DNA from: Azotobacter vinelandii CA
Lineage (GTDB): Bacteria > Pseudomonadota > Gammaproteobacteria > Pseudomonadales > Pseudomonadaceae
Direction of reading: 5' to 3'
DNA: 64,000 nt
Assembly (NCBI RefSeq): GCF_000380335.1
Contig: NC_021149.1
Location: 2,160,501-2,224,500, forward strand
Shown here: positions 40,555-60,252 of the stretch, one piece after another
Numbering within the stretch: the first letter of the stretch is position 1
Layout of the letters: the number at the start of each line of letters is the position of its first letter
Notes under the pieces: generated by a model
Told to the model about the DNA's origin: nothing
The model's input: the letters and a program-made list of their open reading frames with translations, nothing else
Database searches by the model: none
Position numbers and translations under genes: made by a program

Positions 40555-40576
40555 CGATGGGGCCGGGGCCCCATCG
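40555..40576 (-). terminator. Rho-independent terminator of the leftward polyol operon
   Basis: A perfect 10-bp GC-rich stem (CGATGGGGCC / GGCCCCATCG) with a 2-nt loop is followed on the minus strand by TTTTT. It lies 22 bp after the stop of the last gene and is the strongest terminator in the window. Confidence 0.9.
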
Positions 40577-40598
40577 GCGAGACTGAATATTTATCGTC

Positions 40599-41726
40599 TC
40601 AAGGAGTCAAAATCACTTTCAGGGAGTCCTTGCCGCTCATTGCGAGTTTGAAACCATCCATGAAGCGCTCTAAGGGGAAGTTATGGGTGACGACACCCTC
40701 GGTCGGCAGGGAACCGTCGGCAATACCTTCGATTACCAGCGGGTAGCAATAGGGACCGAGGTGCGCACCGAGAACATCGAGCTCCTTGCGGTCACTGATG
40801 ATGCTCCAGTCGACGGTTACCGGGTCCTTGAAAACACTGAACTCGACGAAGCGTCCAAGGTTGCGGATCATCGATAAGCCTTGTTCCACGGACTTCGGAT
40901 GCCCGGTCGCTTCGATATAGACATCGCAACCATAACCATCGGTGATCTCCTTGATCCGGGCCACGGGATCCTCTTTCGCAGGATTGATGACAAGATCGGC
41001 ACCGAATTTCTTCGCCAGCTCGAGTCGATCCTCGAACAAATCCATCACGACCAGTTTTCCGGGGCCGGCCTTCTTGGCCGCGCCGATCATCCCTAAGCCC
41101 AGGGTACCGGCGCCCGCGAGTACTACCACATCTCCGAACTGGATTTGCGCACGCTGTACCGCATGCATCGAGCAGGCATAGGGCTCGATAAGTACCGCCT
41201 TCTCGATCGGCAGATCCCGCGGAACCTTATAGTTGATACTCTCTTTGGTGAACCTAATGTACTCGGCCATTGCACCGTTCACGTTGTTCTGGAAGCCGTA
41301 GAGGTCGTGCTTTTGGCACATCCAGTAATGGCCACGTTTACAGAAACGACAGTTCCAGCAGGGCACAATCTGCTCGGAGATCACGCGATCGCCCAGTTCG
41401 TAGCCTTCAACGCCTTTGCCCAGTTCGACGATATGAGCGATAAACTCATGTCCTGGAATCATTGGCGCCTTGATATAGGCCGGCTGGGTTTCGTCTCCCC
41501 AGAAGCTGGGTGCGCCACCGAAGGACTTGATATCGCCTGCACAGATGCCGCAGGCTTCGACCTTGGCTATGATTTCGCCCGGTCCGGCCTTTGGTACCGC
41601 TACTTCCTCCAGGCGGTAGTCGCCAGGTGCGTAGGCCATCACGGCCTTCATGGTTTTCGGAATGTTATTCAGTCTGCGGGTGGAAATACTCTCTTTAGCC
41701 ACGGAGGTCATTATTGTTTTCTCCAT
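40599..41726 (-). CDS. eltD: Zinc-dependent medium-chain dehydrogenase, probable erythritol/L-threitol dehydrogenase
   Basis: A 375-residue medium-chain alcohol dehydrogenase. The catalytic zinc site is in CGICAGDIK and GHEF; the structural zinc motif is PCWNCRFCKRGHYWMC; the NAD-binding turn is VLAGAGTLGLGMIGAAKKAG. From memory, SEQIVPCWxCxFCKRGxYxMCQ, HDLYGF and VDWSIISDxKELDVLGAHLGPYC are shared with EltD, the erythritol/L-threitol dehydrogenase of Mycobacterium smegmatis, which makes L-erythrulose. Neighbouring DhaK/DhaL- and RpiB-like genes agree. It is the last gene before the terminator. A general polyol dehydrogenase is the alternative. Confidence 0.8.
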   Translation of the reverse strand: MEKTIMTSVAKESISTRRLNNIPKTMKAVMAYAPGDYRLEEVAVPKAGPGEIIAKVEACGICAGDIKSFGGAPSFWGDETQPAYIKAPMIPGHEFIAHIVELGKGVEGYELGDRVISEQIVPCWNCRFCKRGHYWMCQKHDLYGFQNNVNGAMAEYIRFTKESINYKVPRDLPIEKAVLIEPYACSMHAVQRAQIQFGDVVVLAGAGTLGLGMIGAAKKAGPGKLVVMDLFEDRLELAKKFGADLVINPAKEDPVARIKEITDGYGCDVYIEATGHPKSVEQGLSMIRNLGRFVEFSVFKDPVTVDWSIISDRKELDVLGAHLGPYCYPLVIEGIADGSLPTEGVVTHNFPLERFMDGFKLAMSGKDSLKVILTP

Positions 41727-41845
41727 TTGTTGTTTTCATCATTAATGCAGTCTGCGTTTGCGTTAGTGTCGATGATTACGCTCATTGTTGGTCAATGAGT
41801 CGACTCGGACTGATCATGAGGGCCCGATAAAGACTTGGGCCTGGT

Positions 41846-57353: not shown

Positions 57354-58799
57354 ATGCAGCGCAGAACCAAGATCGTCGCCACCCTCGGCCCGGCCACCGA
57401 AACCCCCGAAGCCATCGAAGGCCTGGTCAAGGCCGGGGTCGATGTGGTGCGCCTGAACTTCTCCCACGGCAAGGCCGAGGAACACCAGGCCCGCGCCACC
57501 CTGGTCCGCGAGATGGCCGCCAAACACGGGCGCTTCGTCGCTATCCTCGCCGACCTGCAGGGACCCAAGATCCGCATCTCGCGCTTCGCCGACGGCAAGG
57601 TGCTGCTGGAGAAGGGCCAAACCTTCGTCCTCGACGCCGCCCTCGACAAGAACGCCGGCGACGCGACCCGCGTCGGCATCGACTACGAGGCGCTGATCAC
57701 CGACAGCCGCCCCGGCGACATCCTGCTGCTCGACGACGGCCGCGTGGTGCTCGAGACCCGCGAGGTCAAGGCCAGCGAACTGGTCTGCGCGGTGCGGGTC
57801 GGCGGCCCGCTGTCCAACAACAAGGGCATCAACCGCCAGGGCGGTGGCCTGTCCGCCTCGGCGCTGACCGACAAGGACTGCGCGGACATCAAGACCGCCG
57901 CCGCCATGCAGGTCGACTACCTGGCGGTGTCCTTCCCGCGCGATGCCGCCGACATGCAGCACGCCCGCCGCTTGATGCAGGAGGCCGGCGGCAACGCCGG
58001 GCTGGTGGCGAAGATCGAGCGCGCCGAGGCGGTGGCCGACGACCAGGTGCTCGACGGCATCATCCTCGCCTCCGAGGCGGTGATGGTGGCGCGCGGCGAC
58101 CTGGGCGTGGAGATCGGCGACGCCGAACTGGTCGGCGTGCAGAAGCGCATCATCGAGCGGGCGCGGGTGCTCAACCGCGCGGTGATCACCGCCACGCAGA
58201 TGATGGAGACCATGATCACCCAGTCGCTGCCGACCCGCGCCGAGGTGTTCGACGTGGCCAATGCGGTGCTCGACGGCACCGACGCGGTGATGCTCTCGGC
58301 CGAGACCGCCGCCGGCGCCTACCCGGTGGAGACCGTGGAGGCCATGGGGCGGATCATCCTCGGCGCCGAGCAGCACCCGCTGGCGCACCGCTCGAAGCAC
58401 CGCCTGGACCAGGTGTTCCACCGCATCGACGAGACCATCGCGCTGTCGGCGATGTACGCGGCCAACCACCTGGAAGGGGTCAAGGCGATCGTCTGCCTGA
58501 CCGAGAGCGGCGACACCCCGCGGCTGATGTCGCGGATCCGCTCGCACCTGCCGATCTACGCCTTCTCCCGGCATCCGCGCACGCAGAGCCGGGTGGCGCT
58601 GTTCCGCGGGGTGCACCCGATCCCCTTCGAGGCCGATCGGATCGCCGAGGCCGAGCTGAACGCCCGGGCGGTCAAGGAGCTGCTGCAGCGCCGCCTGGTG
58701 GCCGAGGGCGACCTGGTGCTGATCACCAAGGGCGCCGGCCATGCCCAGGGCGGCACCGACACCCTGCGCATCGTGCGCGTGGGCGACGTCATCCATTGA
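57354..58799 (+). CDS. pyk: Pyruvate kinase
   Basis: A 481-residue pyruvate kinase. It starts [27 protein letters not shown], the catalytic Lys region [28 protein letters not shown] and ATQMMETMI are all intact, and the C-terminal domain is complete. It converts phosphoenolpyruvate and ADP to pyruvate and ATP, the last step of the pathway encoded here. The ATG at 57354 lies 10 bp from GGAGG; the ATG at 57345 touches it and is less likely. The genome probably has another copy for central metabolism. Confidence 0.94.
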
Positions 58800-58814
58800 G
58801 CGGAGGGGGCTTCG

Positions 58815-58946
58815 ATGCAACCGAGCGAACCTCAGGACTGGCCGCGCGACTTCGACATCCGCGCCTCGCATGCCGAACAACAGGAGCTGCTCGCCGCGGG
58901 CGAGGCCGTTCCAACCCCTGCACAGGACCCGACACACGATGAGTAA
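58815..58946 (+). CDS. Small acidic 43-residue protein between pyk and eno
   Basis: A short frame has a near-perfect GGAGGGGG 6 bp before the ATG and overlaps the enolase start by 8 bp. It encodes an acidic peptide beginning [20 protein letters not shown] and ending in PTHDE. There is no signal or membrane segment. I do not recognise it. It fills the gap between pyruvate kinase and enolase exactly, so it is either a small protein of the operon or a leader that couples translation to enolase. Confidence 0.55.
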
Positions 58947-60252
58947 CCCCAGCACCTCGATCCAGCACGTCGCCGCCCGCGAGATCCTCGATTCGCGCGG
59001 CAACCCCACCGTCGAGGCGGTGGTCACCCTGGCCGGCGGCGCCACGGGGGTGGCCAGCGTGCCCTCCGGGGCCTCCACCGGCAGCCGCGAGGCCCTCGAA
59101 TTGCGCGACGGCGCGCTGCGCTATCAAGGCAAGGGCGTGATGAAGGCGGTGGACAACGTCAACGGCGCGATCCGCGAGCGGGTGGTCGGCCTCGACGCGC
59201 TCGACCAGCGCGCGGTCGACCAGGCCATGCTCGAACGGGATGGCACCGACAACAAGGCGATCCTCGGCGCCAACGCCATCCTCGCCGTGTCCCTGGCTAC
59301 CGCCAGGGCCGCCGCCGCGGCCCGCGGCCTGCCGCTCTACGCGCACCTGGCCGAGCTGTACGGCAGCCCCGGCGAGTACAGCCTGCCGGTGCCGATGATG
59401 AACATCCTCAACGGCGGCGAGCATGCCGACAACAACGTCGACCTCCAGGAGTTCATGATCCAGCCGGTCGGCGCGGCCAGCTTCAAGGAAGCGCTGCGCA
59501 TCGGCGCCGAGGTGTTCCACACCCTCAAGCAGGTGCTTGCCGAGCGTGGGCTGAGCACCGCGGTGGGCGACGAGGGCGGCTTCGCGCCGTCCCTGTCCTC
59601 CAACGAGGAAGCGCTGGTGGTGATCCAGGCGGCGGTCGAGCGCGCCGGCTACGTGCTGGGCCAGGACATCACCCTGGCGCTGGACTGCGCGGCCTCGGAG
59701 TTCTACCACGACGGGCAGTACCGGCTGGCCGGCGAGGGCAAGGCCTTCGACTCCCGGGGCTTCGCCGACTACCTGGCGGGCCTGTGCGAGCGCTACCCGA
59801 TCGTCTCGATCGAGGACGGCCTGGACGAGAGCGACTGGGCGGGCTGGGCCTACCTGACCGAAAAACTGGGCGACAAGGTGCAACTGGTCGGCGACGACCT
59901 GTTCGTGACCAACCCGAAGATCCTCCGGGAAGGCATCGAGCGGGGCATCGGCAACTCGATCCTGATCAAGTTCAACCAGATCGGCAGCCTGAGCGAGACC
60001 CTGGAGGCGATCCGCCTGGCGCAGCAGGCCGGCTACACGGCGGTGATCTCGCACCGTTCGGGGGAGACCGAGGACACCACCATCGCCGACCTGGCGGTGG
60101 CGACCCGCGCCGGGCAGATCAAGACCGGCTCGCTGTGCCGCTCGGACCGGGTGGGCAAGTACAACCAGTTGCTGCGCATCGAGGAGGCCTTGCAGGGCAA
60201 GGCGCCCTATGACGCCTCGGCGCTGCTGAAGCGGCGCTGCTGCAGCCGCTGA
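58939..60252 (+). CDS. eno: Enolase
   Basis: A 437-residue enolase. [16 protein letters not shown], the loop [17 protein letters not shown], the acid-base region [10 protein letters not shown], metal-ligand segments LDCAASEFY and [11 protein letters not shown], and the signature [17 protein letters not shown] followed by [15 protein letters not shown] are present. It converts 2-phosphoglycerate to phosphoenolpyruvate. The start overlaps the small ORF by 8 bp. The tail LLKRRCCSR is unusual. It is likely a second, pathway-dedicated copy, since a single housekeeping enolase normally sits by pyrG. Confidence 0.94.

Follow-up and report, generated by a model that had tools for sequence, protein, structure and literature searches.

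Gene Content of the Cluster

A stretch of 64,000 nucleotides from the genome of Azotobacter vinelandii CA (NC_021149.1, positions 2,160,501–2,224,500; hereafter the window) was analyzed, in which a gene cluster spanning 38.9–60.3 kb is predicted to serve the catabolism of the tetritols erythritol and threitol. From left to right, the reverse strand encodes a LamB-like porin, a zinc-dependent dehydrogenase, gapN, dhaL, dhaK, a short-chain dehydrogenase (SDR) of the GolD/DthD family and the binding protein, permease and ATPase of a CUT2-type importer, followed on the forward strand by rpiB, a HAD phosphatase gene, tal, tkt, rpiA, sorC, pyk and eno (Table 1). All genes named in a preliminary description of this DNA were found as open reading frames with family matches, while the HAD phosphatase, stubs of mtlD and xylB, a pgi relic and the near-identical copies elsewhere in the genome had been missed. 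The families given there for the SDR (DthD-like), the DhaK/DhaL-like kinase subunits and the importer (RbsABC-type, here CUT2-type) were borne out. The divergent RpiB-like isomerase is indeed of the RpiB family, but it stays below the cutoff of the rhizobial DerI equivalog. Throughout, comparisons were made between the A. vinelandii genome containing the window (G000) and three other Azotobacter genomes (G001, G002, and G003).

Table 1. Genes and other features of the cluster, with positions in the window and the basis of each assignment
Feature	Position	Strand	Basis
LamB-like outer-membrane porin	38885..40204	-	Maltoporin LamB model 265 bits, below cutoff 394
Zn-dependent medium-chain dehydrogenase, candidate tetritol dehydrogenase	40599..41726	-	No equivalog cutoff reached
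gapN (non-phosphorylating glyceraldehyde-3-phosphate dehydrogenase), inserted	41846..43450	-	95–96% identical copies elsewhere in G000
dhaL, kinase subunit	43814..44461	-	164 bits, cutoff 138
dhaK, kinase subunit, candidate erythrulose kinase	44465..45466	-	343 bits, below dhaK1 equivalog cutoff 406; family clear
GolD/DthD-family SDR	45488..46246	-	400 bits, cutoff 286
CUT2 sugar-binding protein	46286..47287	-	Top PDB matches 4rsm, 5hko, 4rs3
CUT2 permease	47392..48372	-	Family match
CUT2 ATPase	48369..49862	-	Family match
Divergent control region	49899..50122	.	Two GATCAWATGATC palindromes 210 bp apart, candidate SorC operators
RpiB-like isomerase, candidate D-erythrulose-4-phosphate isomerase	50161..50634	+	RpiB 188 bits, cutoff 135; rhizobial DerI equivalog 160, cutoff 240
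Stub resembling mtlD 3' end	50824..50890 (end approximate)	+	Junction alignment
HAD phosphatase, copied block	50902..51597	+	Family match and 99.3% block
Transaldolase (tal), copied block	51581..52549	+	Family match and 99.3% block
Transketolase (tkt), copied block	52546..54576	+	Family match and 99.3% block
xylB stub, ~13 codons	54579..54616	+	Junction alignment
pgi relic, 97 bp	54616..54712	+	82.5% identical to pgi gene at locus L039
rpiA, older duplicate	54883..55557	+	90% to other G000 rpiA
SorC/DeoR-type regulator	55879..56856	+	Family match; recurs in syntenic modules
Pyruvate kinase (pyk), cassette copy	57345..58799	+	Family match and near-identical copies
Enolase (eno), cassette copy	58939..60252	+	Family match and near-identical copies

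The Core Tetritol Module

A genome scan with the SDR as query retrieved 70 loci, 10 of which (L041–L048, L068, and L101) carry the core module in synteny. The hosts are three Pseudomonas, Luteibacter, Paraburkholderia, Burkholderia, three Herbaspirillum and Chromobacterium. In the recurring layout sorC and rpiB lie divergently to the genes for the ATPase, permease and binding protein, which are followed by those for the SDR, the Zn-dehydrogenase, DhaK and DhaL, the place of the Zn-dehydrogenase being variable; L046 is cut at the start of its contig and is without sorC and rpiB. All 10 modules contain a homolog of the Zn-dehydrogenase (53–72% identity). The module proteins are 73–86% identical to their Pseudomonas counterparts, the Zn-dehydrogenase 59–60%. 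With the arrangement conserved at 10 of the 70 retrieved loci, the co-occurrence of the core genes is not due to chance, and the core appears to be a conserved proteobacterial tetritol module. In the module of Herbaspirillum huttiense (L048, 10798–11810) dhaK is split into two open frames by a possible frameshift.

The three best solved relatives of the binding protein (4rsm, 5hko, and 4rs3) belong to a single CUT2 group, and we take them to be polyol binders of Mycolicibacterium smegmatis. According to PMC4465626, erythritol is used by A. vinelandii, and glycerol, erythritol and D-arabitol are used by no A. chroococcum strain. The SDR was found in only one of 37 genomes searched (G000; E up to 1e-60) and in none of the other three Azotobacter genomes, and its presence in one of four Azotobacter genomes fits this difference in erythritol phenotype. 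Together, the SDR family, the relatives of the binding protein, the conserved synteny and the published use of erythritol make a role in tetritol catabolism, as had been proposed, well supported, with erythritol and/or D-threitol the most likely substrate.

Three Insertions of Central-Metabolism Genes

Relative to the 10 syntenic modules, the window has three insertions: gapN in the gap between dhaL and the Zn-dehydrogenase gene, HAD-tal-tkt-rpiA between rpiB and sorC, and pyk-eno behind sorC. No match to tkt, rpiA, pyk, eno or gapN was found in the 10 modules (E up to 1e-8 over 40% or more of the query, with 9.6 to 20.8 kb examined in each), and tal occurs beside sorC in one of them (H. huttiense). 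The GC content at third codon positions forms a mosaic, with values of 0.59–0.76 in the core genes and 0.85–0.96 in the inserted genes, and the core of the tetritol operon appears to be of foreign composition.

The origin of the second insertion can be traced in part. Positions 50824–54616 of the window are 99.3% identical to a stretch of a polyol (arabitol)/Entner-Doudoroff (ED) cluster of the same genome, which contains a polyol dehydrogenase of the mtlD/dalD kind (below equivalog cutoffs), HAD, tal, tkt, xylB, edd, zwf, eda, pyk, eno and gapN, in addition to transporter genes that were named by eye. Since stubs of mtlD and xylB stand at the ends of the window copy, the direction of copying was from the ED cluster to the tetritol cluster. 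The two copies differ by four synonymous changes in tkt, one synonymous change in tal, and two synonymous changes and one other in the HAD gene; the block was either copied recently or recently converted. Behind the xylB stub lies the pgi relic, and the insert therefore probably included a pgi at one time; this 97-bp repeat had been considered as a mobile element, a candidate that was dropped once it was recognized as pgi. The same pgi stretch is also present at loci L039 and L040 (1.751 and 1.647 Mb of G000), and at L039 pgi lies beside zwf, pgl-like and fructokinase-like genes (named by eye). L039 apparently holds a comparable slice, in this case of the upper pathway.

The rpiA of the window is 86–89% identical to rpiA of the three sister Azotobacter genomes. 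A repeat of ~130 bp precedes it (window 54737–54865), of which many copies with ~70–85% identity occur in the four Azotobacter genomes.

Lower-Glycolysis Slices Elsewhere in the Genome

Pieces of pyk-eno were found at five further loci of G000, with 98–99% identity. The slice comprises pyk-eno without gapN in the glycerate/glyoxylate cluster, pyk-eno-tpiA-gapN in the inositol cluster, pyk-eno-gapN in the ED cluster, and pyk with only an eno remnant in the galactonate cluster. In the glycerol cluster (L033, 10660–11157 and 13457–14836) it consists of eno and tpiA together with a pyk that has lost 948 bp internally and a gapN that is shortened; the pyk deletion keeps the frame, and cassette copies thus also decay. 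The eno and tpiA copies of the inositol and glycerol loci are fully identical. The inositol-locus paralog of gapN has 11 PDB matches (E up to 1e-50), all of which are named NADP-dependent glyceraldehyde-3-phosphate dehydrogenase.

A further slice is present in a tetronate cluster of G002, identified by 3-oxo-tetronate kinase, decarboxylase and isomerase models above cutoff, where a damaged pyk-eno is followed by tpiA and a partial gapN. The flanks of this cluster are matched in G001 and G003. Three tandem, near-identical transposase-like frames accompany the damaged pyk-eno-tpiA-gapN in the tetronate cluster at L154 (7734–19907), which is from an Azotobacter species other than A. vinelandii.

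All three loci expected to produce dihydroxyacetone phosphate carry tpiA, which the four others lack, and iPGM is in none of the slices. The galactonate locus does not fit, as it should yield glyceraldehyde 3-phosphate and yet has no gapN match. Slice content mostly fits the entry metabolite of each pathway, by a rule that was read off after the fact from a small set.

Substrate and Route

Erythritol is a meso compound, and its oxidation at one inner carbon gives D-erythrulose, at the other L-erythrulose. In M. smegmatis the isomerase LerI serves the L-erythrulose branch, as stated in PMC10733421; a dehydrogenase yielding D-erythrulose would make LerI unnecessary. The cluster contains no LerI-type or triose-phosphate isomerase (TIM) family gene, and no iPGM gene was found in it (the other mutase family was not searched); these gaps had been pointed out in the preliminary description and are real. 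A tblastn search of the 70 SDR loci with TpiA (E up to 1e-3) gave no match and thus none in the 10 syntenic modules. When 12 genomes were scanned for the TIM family, with that of L046 left out, all nine module genomes had one full-length match, beside which one of them (G041) carries an extra partial match of 70 bits. Two of the three actinobacterial genomes scanned have a second TIM (188 and 218 bits), possibly but not necessarily LerI. As no LerI-type isomerase was found here or in the nine module genomes scanned, the route that is favored would lead from erythritol/D-threitol through D-erythrulose and D-erythrulose 4-phosphate to erythrose 4-phosphate.

From families and gene context, the following steps are proposed. 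The CUT2 importer would take up erythritol and/or D-threitol under the control of the SorC-type regulator, and the Zn-dehydrogenase or the SDR would oxidize the tetritol to D-erythrulose. DhaK/DhaL is predicted to phosphorylate this to D-erythrulose 4-phosphate, which the RpiB-like enzyme may isomerize to erythrose 4-phosphate. From erythrose 4-phosphate, transaldolase, transketolase and RpiA (once also Pgi) could then form fructose 6-phosphate and glyceraldehyde 3-phosphate, with rpe supplied from outside the cluster. The triose would reach pyruvate by way of GapN, a mutase encoded elsewhere in the genome, enolase and pyruvate kinase. Two iPGM genes are present in G000, at 0.44 and 2.82 Mb, the latter ~2 kb past polyol transporter genes. 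A self-contained glycolysis in the cluster was considered and dropped, as its genes include no rpe, no phosphoglycerate mutase and no functional pgi. The preliminary description overstated the case in having a C4 polyol carried almost to pyruvate by one cluster, since hexose phosphate would have to leave through ED enzymes encoded elsewhere. It had also called the arrangement unusual, which holds against the 10 related modules and less so within G000, where the insertion of central genes is a habit whose multicopy side is already published in part (PMC4022178).

A competing reading is a route by L-erythrulose, in which the Zn-dehydrogenase would act as a genuine EltD, L-erythrulose 1-phosphate would be the product of the kinase and a TpiA would carry out the LerI step. 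EltD makes L-erythrulose from erythritol in M. smegmatis, erythritol is used by A. vinelandii (PMC4465626), and TpiA and LerI are homologous with activity possibly common to both (PMC10733421). The TIM genes of G000 number three, each of them a strong TpiA-like match (304–310 bits), and the third lies ~5 kb from the inositol slice. However, no TIM gene occurs in any of the 10 syntenic modules, and the single full-length TIM in each of the nine module genomes argues that a dedicated enzyme was not selected for. The L-erythrulose route is on balance unlikely, with a chance that should still be taken seriously.

Regulation of the Cluster

The palindrome GATCAWATGATC has two exact matches in the whole G000 genome, both in the divergent gap between rpiB and the ATPase gene, and it is also found at the equivalent place in Pseudomonas oryzihabitans (L101). 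The motif was chosen after looking and is a lead only. With up to two mismatches allowed, the observed number of operator sites was reached in 2 of 100 shuffles; one weak operator-like site, which has two mismatches, stands ahead of sorC at 55596. A sigma-70-like site was located at 50058–50086 (nine such sites in 12.4 kb, 1.8 expected).

No operator-like site, again with up to two mismatches, precedes pyk-eno, and pyk begins ~490 bp behind sorC. This arrangement would suit gapN, pyk and eno being passengers or dosage copies outside tetritol breakdown, and the damaged copies at other loci show slices to be dispensable. Against such a role stand the three separate insertions, all intact in the window, the distribution of tpiA over the loci that yield dihydroxyacetone phosphate, and the metabolically sensible contexts to which Maerk et al. 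(PMC4022178) also point. It is improbable that the three genes are unconnected with the pathway, to about the degree stated for the L-erythrulose route.

Probable Concerted Evolution of the Copies

By their flanks, the ED locus is common to G000, G001 and G002, the galactonate locus to the same three genomes (in G002 with only an eno remnant), and the glycerate locus to G000 and G003. The joints at the ED and galactonate loci are also alike between species. G001 and G003 are drafts with contigs breaking in these repeats, and only parts of copies were compared. In the galactonate flanks, G000 and the two sister genomes share 92.4–92.5% identity. Among the five full pyk copies of G000, identity is 99.0–99.9% over 804 bp and 96.7–99.3% over 421 bp, and the two copies of G002 are 99.8% alike over 421 bp; pyk at the same locus in different species is 92.2–95.4% alike. 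Approximately unbiased (AU) tests, for which the same-locus pairs were named from the flanks after the identities had been seen, reject a clade of G000 and G001 for the galactonate pyk (p 6.8e-7), of G000 and G002 for the ED pyk (p 2.7e-8 over 804 bp, 4e-49 over 421 bp) and of G000 and G003 for the glycerate pyk (p 2.9e-4). The pattern is followed weakly by gapN, with the G000 copies 95.4–98.4% alike mutually and 94.1–95.0% to the G002 copies, which are themselves 97.0% alike over 833 bp. The gapN of the window is the most divergent of the G000 copies. From these comparisons, the pyk copies appear to evolve in concert in A. vinelandii and in one sister species (G002), and the slices may be kept alike by gene conversion between copies.

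Alternatively, each species may have duplicated these genes recently and on its own, in which case the near-identity would not be due to conversion between old copies. New duplication does occur here, as shown by the tal-tkt block, which was copied in one direction and still carries stubs from its donor, and the fully identical eno and tpiA at the inositol and glycerol loci would agree with it. The pyk-bearing ED, galactonate and glycerate loci are, however, common to the species by flank and joint, which places the copies before the splits, and same-locus pairing is rejected by the AU tests. Independent duplication is the less probable cause, and a little more doubtful than the two alternatives above.

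Origin and Significance of the Cluster

Taken together, the cluster is probably a tetritol operon of foreign composition making erythrose 4-phosphate, which was later fitted with copies of host genes that handle this product, the slices then being kept alike by gene conversion. A number of observations weigh against this. Homogenization is not seen in G001, where the pyk starts at the galactonate and tetronate loci share 96.9% identity over 229 bp, and the galactonate start is 98.3% alike to both G002 copies. The gapN and rpiA of the window are far less alike to their copies than are pyk, eno and tkt. At the galactonate locus gapN is missing and eno is lost, and at the glycerol locus pyk is damaged and gapN truncated. 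The Zn-dehydrogenase and the RpiB-like protein pass no EltD or DerI equivalog test, and the D-erythrulose route is inferred from the absence of LerI. The exact operator motif recurs in only one of the other syntenic modules (L101), the rest having no exact match of the wider pattern, and co-expression of pyk-eno with the module, given the gap and the missing site described above, is unproven.

That the cluster serves a compound other than a tetritol, such as glycerol, a pentitol, apulose or a similar polyol or ketose, is very unlikely, as the breadth of the Zn-dehydrogenase, SDR and RpiB families, the GolD/DthD subfamily being the sole substrate-level match, and the mainly threonine and sorbitol dehydrogenases among the PDB relatives of the Zn-dehydrogenase are outweighed by that GolD/DthD match, the relatives of the binding protein, the suitability of tal-tkt-rpiA for erythrose 4-phosphate, the erythritol phenotype (PMC4465626) and a separate glpD cluster for glycerol in G000.

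A wider reading, which we put forward tentatively, is that Azotobacter may possess a self-homogenizing plug-in system, in which catabolic clusters receive copies of a lower-glycolysis slice (pyk-eno, joined where required by tpiA and gapN) that are trimmed to the entry metabolite and that ectopic gene conversion keeps uniform. On this view, the erythritol cluster would be freshly equipped, its core being a LerI-free D-erythrulose route widespread in Proteobacteria.

A DhaK-type kinase and an RpiB-type isomerase, as in the window, are reportedly used in M. smegmatis, and an RpiB-like isomerase is likewise said to be part of the ery pathway of Brucella and rhizobia. The gol operon of Listeria reportedly has golD, dhaK/L, rpiB, tpiA2, tkt and tal together. 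This GolD/DhaK/RpiB cluster tied to transketolase and transaldolase resembles that of the window, and coupling to the pentose phosphate pathway would therefore not be unprecedented. The Listeria operon is said to differ in its Gram-positive host, its phosphoenolpyruvate-dependent kinase and the absence of gapN, eno and pyk. The tetritol pathways of M. smegmatis, as described in papers citing Huang (2015), share with the window the dehydrogenase logic, the CUT2 importer and erythrose 4-phosphate as product; the window differs in having no LerI, separate DhaK and DhaL, a proteobacterial layout and attached central-metabolism genes. The Brucella/rhizobial ery pathway also ends in erythrose 4-phosphate, but runs in five steps by erythrulose phosphates with several isomerases (as described in papers citing Barbier, 2014), whereas the window cluster has no TIM-like isomerase.

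Near-identical copies in different sugar clusters have been described from A. vinelandii as 'synologs' by Maerk et al. (2014; PMC4022178), whose main text reports copies of zwf, tktA, pgi, tpiA, pgm, eno, pykA and talB at least 90% identical, judged not to be recent and to be held by adaptive benefit. The terms 'erythr', 'threitol', 'gene conversion', 'glyceraldehyde' and 'aldehyde dehydrogenase' are all absent from that main text, and literature searches found no paper proposing gene conversion for these copies. The multicopy habit is thus known, while concerted evolution and the fitting of slice content to the pathway look new. Gene conversion would offer an alternative cause for the published puzzle of many near-identical glycolytic genes in one bacterium. 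The cluster would also be a readable case of operon assembly, in which a catabolic operon gained central-metabolism genes of its host and stubs of the donor remain where the pieces join. It further points to a way of using erythritol for which no LerI isomerase is needed.

Neighboring Features

Paralogs of the LamB-like porin, 67–69% identical, adjoin the galactonate and ED cassette loci. No Rfam family reached threshold within positions 36000–64000 of the window. Downstream of the cluster lie a PAS-LuxR-type regulator (60333–60899) and genes for a thiolase-domain protein and then an acyl-CoA ligase (61056–63847). Elsewhere in the genome, the Fe-only nitrogenase protein AnfD scored above its cutoff (1154 bits vs. 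873.8) in G000 only, of the four Azotobacter genomes.

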